This document shows, piece after piece, positions 4,609 through 21,640 of a stretch of 64,000 nt of DNA (positions within the stretch are counted from its first letter, which is position 1; the number at the start of each line of letters is the position of its first letter). The DNA is from Armatimonadetes bacterium Uphvl-Ar1 (GTDB taxonomy: Bacteria > Armatimonadota > Fimbriimonadia > Fimbriimonadales > Fimbriimonadaceae). The stretch spans positions 1,240,001 through 1,304,000 of the forward strand of contig CP021423.1 in the NCBI GenBank assembly GCA_002162075.1, written 5' to 3'. The position numbers and the translations under genes were made by a program. The notes beneath the pieces were generated by a model. It was not told where the DNA came from. It saw nothing but the letters and a program-made list of their open reading frames with translations, and did no database searches.

Positions 4609-5154
4609 ATGTCGAGCAATCCTCGCGAAGATTCACTTGCTGAAAAACGCTGGCTGAACGCCCTTGCAAAGGGCGATTCTTCTGCGATGAATGGGCTGTA
4701 CCAGCTTTATGGCGAAAAGATTTTTCGCTACACCTACCGAATGCTTGGCAATCGGGCGGATGCTGAAGATGCAACTGCAGAGACGTTTCTGCGGGTTCTC
4801 AAGCGGGCAAACGATCTGCGCGCCGATGGAGCCTTCAAAACGTGGCTGTTCCGCATCGCACGCAACCTATGCATCGACAAAATGCGCCAGCCGAAACTGC
4901 TTGAGATTTCGGGAGAAAGGTCATACACTGGAACTGAGGAACGCGCCGCCCTCCGGGTTACTGTTCAGAACGCTCTGAACGAACTCCCGCTGGACTACCG
5001 CGAACCCCTGATCCTCTGTGATCTTGAGGATATATCGGCCAAGGAAGCGGCTGACACACTAGGGATCAGCGTCCCCGCTCTCAAATCGCGACTCTATCGC
5101 GGGAGGAGAGCATTGCGCGAAAAACTAGGTGGCTCACTGGAGAAACTGAAATGA
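4609..5154 (+). CDS. ECF RNA polymerase sigma factor
   Basis: The protein has 181 residues and only the two domains of group 4 (ECF) sigma factors. Region 2 spans about 27-95, with YRMLGNRADAEDATAETFLRV and WLFRIARNLCID. Region 4 spans about 118-175, with LPLDYREPLILCDLE and the helix-turn-helix AADTLGISVPALKSRLYRGR. It would direct RNA polymerase to a specialised promoter set. The stop overlaps the next ATG by four bases (ATGA), the normal arrangement for a sigma factor and its anti-sigma. No Shine-Dalgarno is obvious. Its target promoters cannot be told from this sequence. Confidence 0.93.
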   Translation: MSSNPREDSLAEKRWLNALAKGDSSAMNGLYQLYGEKIFRYTYRMLGNRADAEDATAETFLRVLKRANDLRADGAFKTWLFRIARNLCIDKMRQPKLLEISGERSYTGTEERAALRVTVQNALNELPLDYREPLILCDLEDISAKEAADTLGISVPALKSRLYRGRRALREKLGGSLEKLK

Positions 5155-11151: not shown

Positions 11152-11715
11152 ATGGCTGAAAAACTGACTTTCGTCCCCACCCTCGACCCAAAAGTTGAAG
11201 AATTGGCTCTCGTTGCTCGCCTCCGGCGGAACGACCAAGTAGCCATGAATACCATCGTCAGTCGTCACCGAGACCGATTGATTCGAACGGCTACAAATCT
11301 TCTCCGCGATTCCCATGAAGCTGAGGATGTTGCTCAAGAGGCATTTCTTAAATCATTCCGAGAAATTCATAAGCTCCGGGACGACCGCGCCTTCTCCGGC
11401 TACCTATACAAAATATGTGTCCGCCTTTGCATGGATCGCCTTCGATCACGCAAACCAACTGGCGAAGCTGTTGAGCGCGGTATGGGCGGAACCGATCGCC
11501 GCGTCGTAAACCAAATCCTCGTCCAAGAACTTCTGGCCCATCTCCCGCCAGAACAAGCCCAAACGCTCGTCTTGAGAGAAATGGAGCAAATGAGTTACGA
11601 TGAAGTTGCGGACATCATGGATATCCCGGTCGGCACCGTTCGCTCCCGGCTACATGCTGCGCGAGAGAAGTTTCGCGCAATTTGGCTCGAAGCCACGGAG
11701 GAACAGGCTCGTTGA
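11152..11715 (+). CDS. ECF RNA polymerase sigma factor
   Basis: This 187-residue group 4 sigma factor has region 2 at about 20-90 (NLLRDSHEAEDVAQEAFLKSF, GYLYKICVRLCMDRLR). Region 4 lies at about 120-178 (LPPEQAQTLVLREMEQMSYDEVA and MDIPVGTVRSRLHAAREK). The TGA stop overlaps the TTG start of the next gene. It opens an operon in which every junction down to glnD overlaps, so it is likely autoregulated together with those genes. It is divergent from the LptD-like gene, sharing a gap of about 100 bases. Confidence 0.93.
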   Translation: MAEKLTFVPTLDPKVEELALVARLRRNDQVAMNTIVSRHRDRLIRTATNLLRDSHEAEDVAQEAFLKSFREIHKLRDDRAFSGYLYKICVRLCMDRLRSRKPTGEAVERGMGGTDRRVVNQILVQELLAHLPPEQAQTLVLREMEQMSYDEVADIMDIPVGTVRSRLHAAREKFRAIWLEATEEQAR

Positions 11716-12125
11716 CCCAATCTGAGTTTAATCTCCTCGCCGAGATTGTCTTTGACAAAGAAGCAACCTCGGCTGAAACAGAACTGTTTGAACAAGCCGT
11801 GGAGAAGAACCCGGAATGGATGGATGCGTTCCTAGATAACCGATCAATTCTCGATGAGGCATTTACCGAGATTCCAACTACGCCGTCAAATTTCAATCAA
11901 CAACTCCTTGCCCGGTGGCAAGCCGATCAAGTTCGATCTTCGTTTCAATACTGGGCTCCGTCCATTGTCGCCGCCGTAGCTGCCGGAGTTGGACTGCTCG
12001 CGATTCTGACTACTCTCGGTAAACCCGTCCTCAGTCCCAGTCAACTTGACTCCCCAGCAGAAGCCAAACTAGAATCGCCATCCGTCGTAGATTTTCCCAC
12101 CCTCCAAGAACCTCTTGACAGATGA
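11712..12125 (+). CDS. Putative membrane anti-sigma factor
   Basis: I chose the TTG at 11712, which overlaps the sigma stop as TTGA and has a GGAGGA site 9 bases upstream; a second in-frame TTG at 11682 is less likely. The product has 137 residues: an acidic helical N-terminus of about 85 residues that would bind the sigma factor, one transmembrane segment near residues 78-100 (APSIVAAVAAGVGLLAILTTLG) and a short Pro/Ser-rich extracytoplasmic tail. No zinc motif is visible. The call rests on context and topology. Confidence 0.65.
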   Translation: MTQSEFNLLAEIVFDKEATSAETELFEQAVEKNPEWMDAFLDNRSILDEAFTEIPTTPSNFNQQLLARWQADQVRSSFQYWAPSIVAAVAAGVGLLAILTTLGKPVLSPSQLDSPAEAKLESPSVVDFPTLQEPLDR

Positions 12126-17228: not shown

Positions 17229-18965
17229 ATGACCGCTAATCACGAGAATGAACTCGCCCACTCATCGATCTGGGAAATCCAGGAAACGGATGAAACTGCT
17301 GCGACCGTTCTCGTTAAGGATCTAAATGTTGAACCCATCGTTGCGCGACTTCTCGTTCAACGAGGGTTCACCACTCCAGAATCCGCCGAGCAATTCCTCA
17401 CGCCTGATCTCGAAGACCTCACCCTCCCCACCCTTCTTCCCGATTTTGAAAAAGCCAAAGCCGCCTTGCTCAACGCTCGTGAAAAGCAAGAAAAAATCTA
17501 TATCCATGGCGACTACGACGTTGACGGTGTAACATCGGCCGCGATTCTCTACCGCTTCCTCGACCGGACTGGGTTCATTGTTGAAGGCCATGTCCCTCAC
17601 CGCGAAGCCGAAGGGTACGGAATACACATCGATACCGTTCGGCGAGCCAATGCCAGTGGGGCCAAACTCATTCTAACTTGCGACTGCGGGACATCCAGCC
17701 ATTCTCAGCTCGAAGCCGCTTACGAGCTTGGAATGAAAGTCGTCATAACCGACCACCACGAAAGCCCGACAACTCTTCCTCCCGCCGAGGCGATCGTCAA
17801 CCCAAAACGCCGTGACTTCACCGGCCCCGGAGGAGAACTCTCAGGTGCCGGAATCGCATTTCTCTTCTGCCTCGGCCTATGCGAGGAACTTGGGATCAAA
17901 CCGGAAACCTATTTCCGGAACTTTCTCGACCTTGCCGTAATGGGCACTGTTGCCGATGTAATGCCCCTTCACCTCAATAATCGCATCATCGCCCGACACG
18001 GACTTCCCGCCCTCCAAGCCACCCAAAAGAAGGGTCTCCGCGCCCTTCTTCGCGTCTCAAATCTGGATGACTTCAGCGTCAAGCTCACTACTCGCCACAT
18101 CGGTTTCCAGATCGGACCACGGATCAATGCGGTTGGCCGAATCGACGACGCCGATGTCGCTTTCCGACTCCTGACCACCAATGACGCCAAAGAAGGCACC
18201 GAGCTCGCCGAGTTTCTTGACCGAAAGAATCAAGAGAGAAGGACACTGCAGGATGCGCTCGTTGAAGAGGCCACTGCAAAAATCATTGCCAATGGACTCG
18301 ACAAGAGCTCTGCCATTGTTGTCGCTGGAGAAAATTGGCAGAAAGGCATCGTGGGAATCGTAGCGGGCAAAGTCACCGAGAAATTTCGCCGCCCCGCATT
18401 CGTCCTCGGGATTCATGGAGACCAAGCGACGGGCTCCGCTCGATCAATCCCCGCATTCAACTTATTCGATGCTATCGAAGCCAACCGCGGCCTGATCATC
18501 AAAGGCGGAGGTCACGCCGCTGCTGCTGGGGTCACTGTCGCTGTCGCGAACCTAGAAGCCTTCCAAAACGCCATCAATGAATTTGCTCAAAATCTTCTTC
18601 AACCAGAGGACTTCCTGCCACGTATCCGAATCGATCAACCAATCACTCTTCCCGAAACGTCCCTCGCCCTTGCCCAATCAATCGCCCAGCTCGAACCATT
18701 TGGTGAAGCCAACCCCGAACCCCAATTCCTCATGCAGGGCGTCCACCTGGCCACAAACAACCCGACTCGAAACCCCATTCACACTCGGGTTCTGCTCAAG
18801 TCCGGGCCAGAAGACCGGATGGCAATGGCCTTCGGCCTCGGTGAACAGTTTGCTGCACTCCCCCTACAGACAAAAATCGATACAGTAGTGAATATCGAAG
18901 AAGATCAATTCAACGGCAAAAAACGCCTCAAAATGGTTGTCCGCGATTTCCGCTTAGCGGAGTAA
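17229..18965 (+). CDS. recJ: Single-stranded-DNA-specific exonuclease RecJ
   Basis: The 578-residue protein is of typical RecJ length. DHH-family motifs are in order: HGDYDVDGVTSAAI (about 94-107), TCDCGTS near 155, ITDHHES near 173, then LDLAVMGTVADVMPL near 238, and the DHHA1 half with GGGHAAAAGVTV near 425. RecJ degrades single-stranded DNA 5' to 3' in recombination and mismatch repair using two metal ions. It follows trkA by 54 bases. Its last 12 bases overlap the convergent HtrA-like gene. Confidence 0.95.
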   Translation: MTANHENELAHSSIWEIQETDETAATVLVKDLNVEPIVARLLVQRGFTTPESAEQFLTPDLEDLTLPTLLPDFEKAKAALLNAREKQEKIYIHGDYDVDGVTSAAILYRFLDRTGFIVEGHVPHREAEGYGIHIDTVRRANASGAKLILTCDCGTSSHSQLEAAYELGMKVVITDHHESPTTLPPAEAIVNPKRRDFTGPGGELSGAGIAFLFCLGLCEELGIKPETYFRNFLDLAVMGTVADVMPLHLNNRIIARHGLPALQATQKKGLRALLRVSNLDDFSVKLTTRHIGFQIGPRINAVGRIDDADVAFRLLTTNDAKEGTELAEFLDRKNQERRTLQDALVEEATAKIIANGLDKSSAIVVAGENWQKGIVGIVAGKVTEKFRRPAFVLGIHGDQATGSARSIPAFNLFDAIEANRGLIIKGGGHAAAAGVTVAVANLEAFQNAINEFAQNLLQPEDFLPRIRIDQPITLPETSLALAQSIAQLEPFGEANPEPQFLMQGVHLATNNPTRNPIHTRVLLKSGPEDRMAMAFGLGEQFAALPLQTKIDTVVNIEEDQFNGKKRLKMVVRDFRLAE

Positions 18966-19982
18966 GCGTCCCTTCACACCAACCGTCATTTTAACTTCCA
19001 TCTGCTTACCACCCCGATAGATGCGCATGGTCAGTTCACTCCCCGGCTCAACGCCGAATAAGAGTGCCGCAAGGTCAATCACATTTCCAACCGGCGTCCC
19101 ATTTGCCGTCATGATCAAATCGCCTGGCTTCAATCCCGCCAGATCGCTCGGACTCCCCGGAGTCACCTCGTCTACAACCACTTGCCCCGGCCCGTCTCCA
19201 GCTCGGAAAAAGAGCCCGACACTGGGATGCTCTACCTTATGATCATCCCGCTGAAATCCCGCAACAACTCGGTTCAAAATTTTTGAACCAAGAGCATATG
19301 CAACGGTCAAACCCTGCGGACCAAATCCACTTCGAACCTTCTGAACCTGACCCGCATCTCCCCCCGCCGCCAAATTCATTGCACTGGTTTGAGGCATATC
19401 CGGCTGCAAAATCGCGCCAAGAATCCCAACCATCGCTCCAGAATTGTCGAAAACAATTGCTCCCCCCATCGGAACATCCTTCGTCTCAAACTGAATCTCT
19501 GCCAGGGGCACAAACCGTTGACTTGGCATCAAAATCCCTGGGCGATCATCGCTCGTCAACATCCCACGTACTGCGCCCTGAACGGTCGCGACCATCATTT
19601 CCCCAGGTTTCGTTTGGGGGGCAAGCCGAACCGCCTGCCGCTTGCCTGCGACCCAATTATGCGCCCCAAGCAAAACCAAGCTGGTTTCCTTGTCATATCC
19701 AATCCGCCCAAGCTTAACTTCAACCCCGCCGCTCAACTTCGCGGTCAACGGCTCGTAAACCAAGCTTGAAGCGTGAGCCACAAAATATCCCCGATCATCA
19801 ATCAAAACCGCAACTCCAAACGGCTTCCCATTGATGTCAGGAAGCACCGCAAGGGAATCAACCACCGAGGCCCAAGCTGCATTTTGATACGGCCCAATCG
19901 GCGTCAACGGCGTCTCAACAATGTTCCGCTCTTGAGTGACAACCTGAGTTGCCAGGAGGACACTAACCGCCAAAGACCACAT
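18954..19982 (-). CDS. HtrA-like PDZ protein without a catalytic triad
   Basis: The chosen ATG at 19982 has GGAGG 12 bases upstream and a short signal peptide (WSLAVSVLLATQVV). It gives 342 residues and overlaps the anti-sigma gene by 20 bases. A trypsin-like fold of the DegP/HtrA type can be followed. GYFVAHASSLV (65-75) stands where HtrA has VTNNHVV, and YDKETSLVLL stands at the Asp site. DVPMGGAIVF (169-178) replaces GNSGGPL, so the serine is Met172. All three catalytic positions look substituted. A good PDZ domain follows at about 251-334 (GSPSDLAGLKPGDLIMTANG). It is probably a periplasmic substrate- or signal-binding protein. It ends an operon with a sigma factor and a membrane anti-sigma. 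Confidence 0.8.
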   Translation of the reverse strand: MWSLAVSVLLATQVVTQERNIVETPLTPIGPYQNAAWASVVDSLAVLPDINGKPFGVAVLIDDRGYFVAHASSLVYEPLTAKLSGGVEVKLGRIGYDKETSLVLLGAHNWVAGKRQAVRLAPQTKPGEMMVATVQGAVRGMLTSDDRPGILMPSQRFVPLAEIQFETKDVPMGGAIVFDNSGAMVGILGAILQPDMPQTSAMNLAAGGDAGQVQKVRSGFGPQGLTVAYALGSKILNRVVAGFQRDDHKVEHPSVGLFFRAGDGPGQVVVDEVTPGSPSDLAGLKPGDLIMTANGTPVGNVIDLAALLFGVEPGSELTMRIYRGGKQMEVKMTVGVKGRLLR

Positions 19983-20931
19983 TTCGCTTATCGACCTCCG
20001 TTGCCGCACTCGCCCGAGTTTGGGGATCCGTCCCCGCACCAACAATCACAACCTTTCCTGCTTCACCCATTCCAACCGGTGCCGCCATCATCGCTCCCGG
20101 CATCGCATTGTCTGTCGATCCTCTTCGGCTAAACCCTTCAATTGCTCCCGCCGCGATGCTCGTGACTGCCTCAGAAGGCGAAGAACCACGGTCAACTGTT
20201 GTGCCCGATCCACCACCAGCAATTCCATCAATCTTCGCCGAAATATCCGCCGCCGACATGGTTAAGGAAGCCCCATTCGAGACTGGTTGAGCCGATGCAA
20301 AACGAGGAGCTTCGCTTCGCTTCGGAGTACGTCTACTTTGACTCCGAGTACCGGATCGGTTAGCCCCGCTGACTTCACCAAGAGCCGGCACTTCTGCTCC
20401 AGAAATCTGAGTTCCCCCAATTGATGTCTGAGAAGCAGCGTCGGGTTGAGAAAGACCCAACTCTTTCTCAATTCTCGGTTGACGACTTGCATCCATCCGC
20501 GCCATCGGCGAGATTCCGTGCGTCTCGACCCCCATGCTGGCGACCACGGGCGCACTTTCGCCGCCTCCGGTCGTGACACCACGGTTTGGATTCATCAAAA
20601 AGACCGCAAGTGCCACACAAGCCGCAACCGGCAGGGCAAACCGTCCCCAACTCCCGAACCAAGACGTCCGAGCCTCGGGAATTCCCTGACCCAAAATCGC
20701 ATCCTTAACCCGCGCCGAGTTCAGCTGGCATTCCGGAATGTCGCCCAGAGCCTTAAGCTCAGACTTGAGGTTCCCCAAAACCACCAGTTCTTGAGCCATC
20801 GATTTGGACATCGTCTCCGACAATTCCCCACCATCTCCCGCATCCAGCAACTGCTGATCCCCGGCTTCTTCTTCGCCAAATACTCGGCGGAAAAGCGCAT
20901 CCAATTGTTCATTTGTCATCTTGTTATCCAC
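19963..20931 (-). CDS. Membrane anti-sigma factor with long extracytoplasmic tail
   Basis: The 322-residue protein starts at GTG one base after the sigma stop, with GGAGGGGG just upstream. The N-terminal 90 residues are helical and acidic (TNEQLDALFRRVFGEEEAG, SMAQELVVLGNLKSELKALG), fitting a sigma-binding domain. One transmembrane segment lies at about 97-113 (RFALPVAACVALAVFLM). The remaining 200 residues are low-complexity, rich in Gly, Ala, Ser and Met, and predicted outside the membrane. There is no zinc motif. The layout resembles RseA-type regulators with an N-terminal sigma-binding half and a periplasmic half that is a proteolysis or ligand target. Confidence 0.7.
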   Translation of the reverse strand: MDNKMTNEQLDALFRRVFGEEEAGDQQLLDAGDGGELSETMSKSMAQELVVLGNLKSELKALGDIPECQLNSARVKDAILGQGIPEARTSWFGSWGRFALPVAACVALAVFLMNPNRGVTTGGGESAPVVASMGVETHGISPMARMDASRQPRIEKELGLSQPDAASQTSIGGTQISGAEVPALGEVSGANRSGTRSQSRRTPKRSEAPRFASAQPVSNGASLTMSAADISAKIDGIAGGGSGTTVDRGSSPSEAVTSIAAGAIEGFSRRGSTDNAMPGAMMAAPVGMGEAGKVVIVGAGTDPQTRASAATEVDKRNVVFGG

Positions 20932-20932
20932 G

Positions 20933-21577
20933 TTATTCCCCCTCCATCAACGGTGCCAGTCGATCCCGCAACGCCCGCCGAGCCCGCAGTACGCGGAGCT
21001 TTGCTCCTCCCACCGAGCAACCAAAAAAGTCGGCAATTGCATCGTATTCCATCTCTTGAATGTCCCGAAAAACCACGGCATTGCGATGATGTTCCGGTAG
21101 CGAGGCAATTGCTTCCCTGAGCAATTCTCGCGTTTGTTCACGCTCCAAATTCTTTATCGGGTCTTCACCCATGTTCCCCACGGTCATCCAGGTCAGAGCA
21201 CCGGCCGATTCTCGCGTTTCCAGCTTCTGACGCCGATTTGACATCCGAGCCTTATCTGTGCCGAGGTTAGCCGTGATCCGCAAAAGCCAAGTCGTGAACT
21301 TCGCCTCATCCCGGTACCGTTTCAAATTCTGATAAGCCTTGACAAATACTTCCTGAACAATATCCTCCGCATCATCACGTCGCGGAGCCATTTGGTAAGC
21401 ATAGCGATAGACCAGGTCTCGGTGGCGATCGAACAGCCGTTCAAACGCCGAAAAGTCACCATTGCGCGCTAGCCATACCAAGGCCTCATCCGAATCGGGA
21501 GCCAGTCCCGCCGGAATCGCTTTGGATCGTTCGCTCATTGGCGGCTGATCAAATCTCAATGCACTCCTCAAAGCCAT
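20933..21577 (-). CDS. ECF RNA polymerase sigma factor
   Basis: The product has 214 residues from the ATG at 21577. An ATG at 21538 (MSERSK) would remove 13 residues and is also possible; neither has a strong ribosome site. Region 2 spans about 35-105 (RHRDLVYRYAYQMAPRRDDAEDIVQEVFVKAY, FTTWLLRITANLGTDKAR). Region 4 spans about 150-205 (LPEHHRNAVVFRDIQEMEYDAIADFFG, AKLRVLRARRALR). It leads an operon with an anti-sigma factor and a PDZ/HtrA-like protein, the composition of an envelope-stress sigma system. Confidence 0.92.
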   Translation of the reverse strand: MALRSALRFDQPPMSERSKAIPAGLAPDSDEALVWLARNGDFSAFERLFDRHRDLVYRYAYQMAPRRDDAEDIVQEVFVKAYQNLKRYRDEAKFTTWLLRITANLGTDKARMSNRRQKLETRESAGALTWMTVGNMGEDPIKNLEREQTRELLREAIASLPEHHRNAVVFRDIQEMEYDAIADFFGCSVGGAKLRVLRARRALRDRLAPLMEGE

Positions 21578-21640
21578 CTTACATTAACTCAAACGAACCA
21601 AGTTCCGCCGAGTTACTGAAATAACCTTCTCACGGTAGGT

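Follow-up and report, generated by a model that had tools for sequence, protein, structure and literature searches.

Envelope-stress sigma factors serve as a model of proteolytic signalling in which HtrA proteases do the cutting. Unfolded outer membrane proteins in E. coli are sensed through the PDZ domain of DegS, which then cleaves RseA, and RseB shields RseA from the site-1 protease (PMC10202637). In Pseudomonas, MucA is shielded from the site-1 protease by MucB, and MucB/AlgW parallel RseB/DegS (PMC8545111). The M. tuberculosis genes sigE-rseA-htrA-tatB show the order sigma, anti-sigma and HtrA, which is also that of the locus reported here; the M. tuberculosis HtrA, unlike the protein treated below, has been characterized as a serine protease that is essential (PMC10027907). 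A further difference is that M. tuberculosis sigE and rseA are not cotranscribed. Members of the HtrA family that have lost protease function are also on record: MamO of magnetotactic bacteria is a pseudoprotease kept by selection, which works in magnetite formation, binds metal and has no described sigma/anti-sigma partner. Sigma/anti-sigma modules with HtrA partners and HtrA pseudoproteases are, as such, already known. Their combination with a conserved anti-sigma tail, throughout a class and beyond it, was absent from the open literature searched (most subscription papers lie outside that scope), and no paper joining pseudoprotease, anti-sigma and PDZ was found in it.

The locus lies in a window of 64,000 nucleotides (the whole stretch of DNA analysed) from Armatimonadetes bacterium Uphvl-Ar1 (Fimbriimonadaceae, phylum Armatimonadota), and contains an HtrA-fold protein, named P here, in one operon with an ECF sigma and a putative anti-sigma factor. 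With the sigma E-RseA-RseB-DegS-RseP system of E. coli and the AlgU-MucA-MucB-AlgW-MucP system of Pseudomonas it shares an ECF sigma, a single-pass anti-sigma and an HtrA-fold PDZ protein, with an RseP-like site-2 protease (S2P) in the genome. It is unlike these systems in that P is triad-less and encoded in the sigma operon, and in that the anti-sigma has a conserved C-terminal tail of its own. The likeness of P to RseB and MucB is one of proposed function, i.e. a non-catalytic periplasmic shield of the anti-sigma against site-1 cleavage; the fold is another one, HtrA-like with a PDZ domain, and this genome has its RseB-like protein in a different operon. New in this work are the anti-sigma tail VVFGG-COOH after a disordered linker, the anti-sigma/P overlap, the putative sigma promoter GTAAC-N16-CGTY, a second operon of canonical appearance that includes an active HtrA, and the RseP-like protease. 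We propose that the locus is probably an Armatimonadota stress switch in which an HtrA protein without its cutting residues controls by binding and not by cutting.

Gene organization of the locus

The original prediction for positions 18954-21577, an operon of an ECF sigma, an anti-sigma and an HtrA-like protein with an intact PDZ domain, was borne out by the open reading frames, their coordinates, the Pfam matches and the structural models (Table 1). The sigma protein, for which M14 is an alternative start, also matches the sigma70-ECF NCBIfam superfamily above cut-off, and its gene stands in one operon with that of a single-pass membrane anti-sigma, as in modules of the sigma E/RseA type. 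The longer open reading frame of P reaches 20045, where its first codon is TTG. With the ATG start, no basic residues precede the N-terminal hydrophobic stretch (window 19925-19982), and the in-frame upstream TTG start would add an Arg-rich segment. A RecJ-like gene (17229-18965) is convergent to P, the two 3' ends overlapping by 12 bases (18954-18965). Two more ECF-type sigma genes are found in the window at 4609-5154 and 11152-12125; a short protein with a possible TM helix (11682-12125) comes after the second one and may be its anti-sigma.

Table 1. Features of the dead-HtrA locus (window coordinates) and the second operon (genome coordinates)
Feature	Position	Strand	Basis or remark
Putative ECF-type promoter GTAAC-N16-CGTT, upstream of the sigma gene	21592..21616	-	Recurs upstream of orthologues
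ECF sigma factor, 214 aa	20933..21577	-	Pfam Sigma70_r2 E 1e-18, Sigma70_r4_2 E 6e-11
Putative single-pass membrane anti-sigma, 322 aa	19963..20931	-	AF2 model, position, zinc motif of relatives
Predicted TM helix of anti-sigma, residues 91-113, FALPVAACVALAVFL	20593..20661	-	Sequence and AF2 helix
Conserved anti-sigma tail, last 30 residues, ending NVVFGG-COOH	19966..20055	-	Information profile, 60 loci
20-base overlap, anti-sigma 3' end and P start	19963..19982	-	ATG inside the [D/N]-V codons
Predicted HtrA-fold protein P, 342 aa, ATG start	18954..19982	-	AF2, Foldseek, VIA
Catalytic His position, S72 (VAHASS)	19767..19769	-	hhalign to active HtrA L083; 97-protein alignment
Catalytic Asp position, S101 (KETSL)	19680..19682	-	hhalign to L083; 97-protein alignment
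Catalytic Ser position, M172 (VPMGG)	19467..19469	-	hhalign to L083; 97-protein alignment
PDZ domain, residues 266-333 of P	18984..19187	-	Pfam PDZ_2 E 9e-13, PDZ_6 E 9e-11
Second operon, canonical-looking	G000:C1:2356700-2360350 (L199, 5950-9571)		ECF sigma, zf-HC2 anti-sigma, RseB-like, active HtrA

Fold of P and loss of the catalytic triad

P consists of a short N-terminal hydrophobic stretch, a pseudo-protease domain and the PDZ domain, and PDZ domains are all that Pfam finds in it. An AlphaFold2 model (pLDDT 79.6, input with 13 relatives) shows the chymotrypsin-like double barrel followed by PDZ that characterizes the HtrA/DegP family. HtrA proteins make up the top 50 Foldseek matches to the model (best E 7e-19), and in VIA alignments residues 31-339 align with HtrA structures at Z 20-27, including Rv0983 (PepD; Z 26.9 over 270 residues) and DegS (Z about 23). 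According to the model, P has the HtrA fold along its whole length, and the match is far above chance.

The triad columns were placed by profile alignment (hhalign) of P with L083, an active HtrA from the same genome. His, Asp and Ser had been predicted to be missing at VAHASS, KETSL and VPMGG, with alignment to an active HtrA as the proposed check; hhalign confirmed the three sites, which are occupied in P by S72, S101 and M172. MAFFT puts G173, adjoining M172, at the catalytic Ser column. A census was taken from an alignment of 97 proteins, i.e. 83 of the P type and 14 active HtrAs. All 14 active HtrAs keep H, D and S. In the P-type proteins, the His column has His in none of the 81 that are readable there, Asp is kept in 7/83, and Ser is found at the nucleophile column in 8/83, none of these 8 having His at the His column. 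A complete Ser-His-Asp triad is thus found in none of the 83 P orthologues, and the GNSGG motif is absent from every one of them. With its catalytic residues absent, P is predicted by sequence to lack the activity of a DegS-type protease that cuts an anti-sigma, and is on this basis an HtrA-fold pseudoprotease.

An active triad at other residues was also considered and rejected: H70, two residues from the catalytic His column, is not conserved, and no orthologue has a complete triad.

Conservation, selection and ancestry

Co-conservation of the three genes in relatives had been named as a check on the predicted operon. In a first set of 47 loci, drawn from within the same genus, family and order, the gene order sigma-anti-sigma-P is found in 45, and the remaining two lie at contig ends; in a second set the order is kept in 30 of 34 loci, with the four exceptions again at contig ends. 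Taken over both sets, the three genes are together in 75/75 loci that are not cut short by a contig end. In family f4, one genome has the same gene order, with P truncated by the contig end. Two 1.5 Mb genomes and one other gave no full-length P match and no close homologue of the P-operon sigma. Outside the class, family f8 has an HxxxCxxC-motif protein and a P relative that retains Ser but has lost His and Asp, and an ECF sigma is seen at one of its loci (L208).

In the tree, all dead HtrAs fall on one side of a branch that separates them from the active HtrAs (SH-aLRT 99), a topology consistent with a single triad loss that predates the divergence of these families. Purifying selection on P is strong: in two close pairs its dN/dS is 0.041 and 0.006, vs 0.16 and 0.08 for the anti-sigma. 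The possibility that P is a decaying pseudogene was rejected because of its low dN/dS.

The anti-sigma factor and its C-terminal tail

The AF2 model of the whole anti-sigma (pLDDT 53, of low confidence outside the N-terminal domain) begins with a helical N-terminal domain, which is followed by a TM helix and a disordered linker; two strands are predicted with low confidence close to the C-terminus, at 293-301 and 308-314, within the tail. The protein has no Pfam match, and the HxxxCxxC motif (ZAS, zf-HC2) is absent from it and from family f1. The motif can be seen by eye in the anti-sigmas of f2, f4, f8 and some f5 orthologues; Pfam zf-HC2 matches solely the anti-sigmas of active-HtrA operons. 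Since relatives carry the zinc anti-sigma motif, which would have been lost in the window protein, the anti-sigma assignment is supported, and position, topology and the relatives' motif lead us to infer that the protein acts as an anti-sigma.

Conservation of the tail was profiled without gaps, in register from the C-terminus, in 60 loci from families f1 and f5. Information reaches 3.4-3.5 bits at the last two positions vs about 0.3 in the preceding linker, which shows no conservation in these 60 loci; Gly is found at the two final positions in 54 and 55 of them. The anti-sigmas of family f2 end in another conserved motif, mostly ...SF; f8 orthologues have the gene set, with neither the tail nor a GG/SF end.

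The 20-base anti-sigma/P overlap recurs in nearly all orthologous loci. The [D/N]-V of the tail can be ascribed to it, because the ATG of P fixes these codons. The Gly-Gly cannot, because the first bases of the glycine codons are free third positions of P codons; judging from this codon phase, GG is held by the anti-sigma reading frame. An origin of the whole tail conservation as a by-product of the P start was rejected, since the overlap does not extend to the upstream part of the tail and leaves GG unexplained.

Promoter motif

GTAAC-N16-CGT[C/T] is found in 26/45 orthologous upstream regions, where mononucleotide shuffling predicts 0.06, and in most cases it lies some 94-120 bases ahead of the conserved sigma core. 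The motif by itself suggests that the operon is autoregulated by its own sigma. In genome-wide searches, the reversed control pattern gave more sites than GTAAC-N16-CGTY in every genome, and no regulon is claimed from a pattern that is not above chance genome-wide. Among 15 further sites checked in the genome, 2 are intergenic and just upstream of a gene. These two sites (L223 and L133) lie 40 and 56 bases upstream of an rtcB-like and a secreted-protein gene, respectively, and closely similar sites are present in the nearest relative; the two genes are possible sigma targets.

Proteases and a second operon in the genome

The original prediction also named a search for a site-2 protease gene elsewhere in the genome as a check, and an RseP-like M50 protease that carries a PDZ domain was found at G000:C1:1616578-1618080. 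The genome further encodes two clear cases of active HtrA/DegP proteins, together with two trypsin-like proteins whose triad looks intact. The second operon in Table 1 is closer to the sigma E/AlgU systems than the P operon is; its RseB-like protein has a weak match to the MucB/RseB C-terminal domain (E 6e-4, below cut-off). The predicted layout, a copy of sigma E, RseA and DegS, is too simple a description of the P operon: an active HtrA and an RseB-like protein belong to this separate operon. Its presence means that the dead-HtrA module adds to the canonical module and does not replace it. In some f2 genomes, the dead-HtrA and active-HtrA modules are side by side with one gene between them (L166, L169 and L178); that gene looks like a 6-phosphogluconolactonase.

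Discussion

A shielding role is the simplest reading of P, because it has a DegS-like fold and a PDZ domain and no cutting is expected of it. We propose, at about even probability, that P holds the tail of the anti-sigma without cutting it and in this way controls when other proteases cleave the anti-sigma. The membrane anti-sigma would retain the sigma inside the cell, with the flexible linker and conserved tail outside, and P would dock on the tail through its PDZ groove and/or the former active-site cleft, shielding the anti-sigma as RseB does RseA. A competing signal bound by P (e.g. the exposed C-termini of misfolded envelope proteins) would free the tail; an intact HtrA-type protease might then make the site-1 cut and the RseP-like protease the site-2 cut, and the freed sigma would transcribe its own operon. 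This tail-holding reading is favoured by the HtrA fold, the triad loss, the grouping of the dead forms in the tree, the purifying selection and the gene co-conservation, by a tail kept to its last residue in a fixed C-terminal register, and by the promoter motif, the RseP-like M50 protease and the intact HtrA-type proteases of the genome. Conservation of the tail fits the idea that it is protected or exposed. Some points count against it: a mirror-tree comparison of tail and P, with sigma controlled, gave a weak correlation (partial r 0.14), a C-terminal Gly-Gly is an atypical PDZ ligand, and the [D/N]-V part of the tail pattern is accounted for by the overlapping ATG of P. The f8 proteins, with neither tail nor GG/SF end, indicate that the tail is not required by every dead HtrA of the clade. 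A wider proposal, tentative and somewhat against the balance of probability, is that an HtrA pseudoprotease lineage older than the class Fimbriimonadia is a dedicated extracytoplasmic anti-sigma receptor, which clamps a tail evolved for it and opens RIP by ligand exchange.

The main rivals are that P is an effector of the response or an activator of an active HtrA. As an effector and not a regulator, P would be a periplasmic holdase or chaperone built on the HtrA scaffold and co-transcribed with the sigma, so as to be produced whenever the sigma is active. HtrA proteins are able to act as chaperones (PMC12826053), the PDZ of P is intact, the operon promoter motif suggests induction with the sigma, and M. 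tuberculosis too has htrA in the rseA operon, the meaning of which is described as hard to understand (PMC10027907). The fixed overlap of the two genes and the conservation of the extracytoplasmic anti-sigma tail, however, fit an anti-sigma partner better, and we regard the effector role as unlikely, if worth serious weight. More doubtful still, in our view, is an allosteric role, in which P would form mixed oligomers with an active HtrA or activate it, and this active paralogue would cut the anti-sigma. There is a precedent in MamO, which is required for MamE activity although its triad is not (PMC4794232), and an active HtrA is encoded in the second sigma/anti-sigma operon, adjacent to the P operon in some f2 genomes; P and the active HtrA are nevertheless distant, on separate sides of the tree. 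That P is still proteolytic through residues elsewhere, such as D97 (invariant in the alignments) and H70 (common in family f1), is barely credible, since H70 is missing from many orthologues, GNSGG is gone in all and the few with a column Ser have no column His.

A conserved, selected HtrA pseudoprotease with its own sigma and anti-sigma would represent a natural split of sensing (PDZ and fold) from cutting, and the canonical-looking operon in the same genome provides a built-in comparison for the dead-HtrA module.
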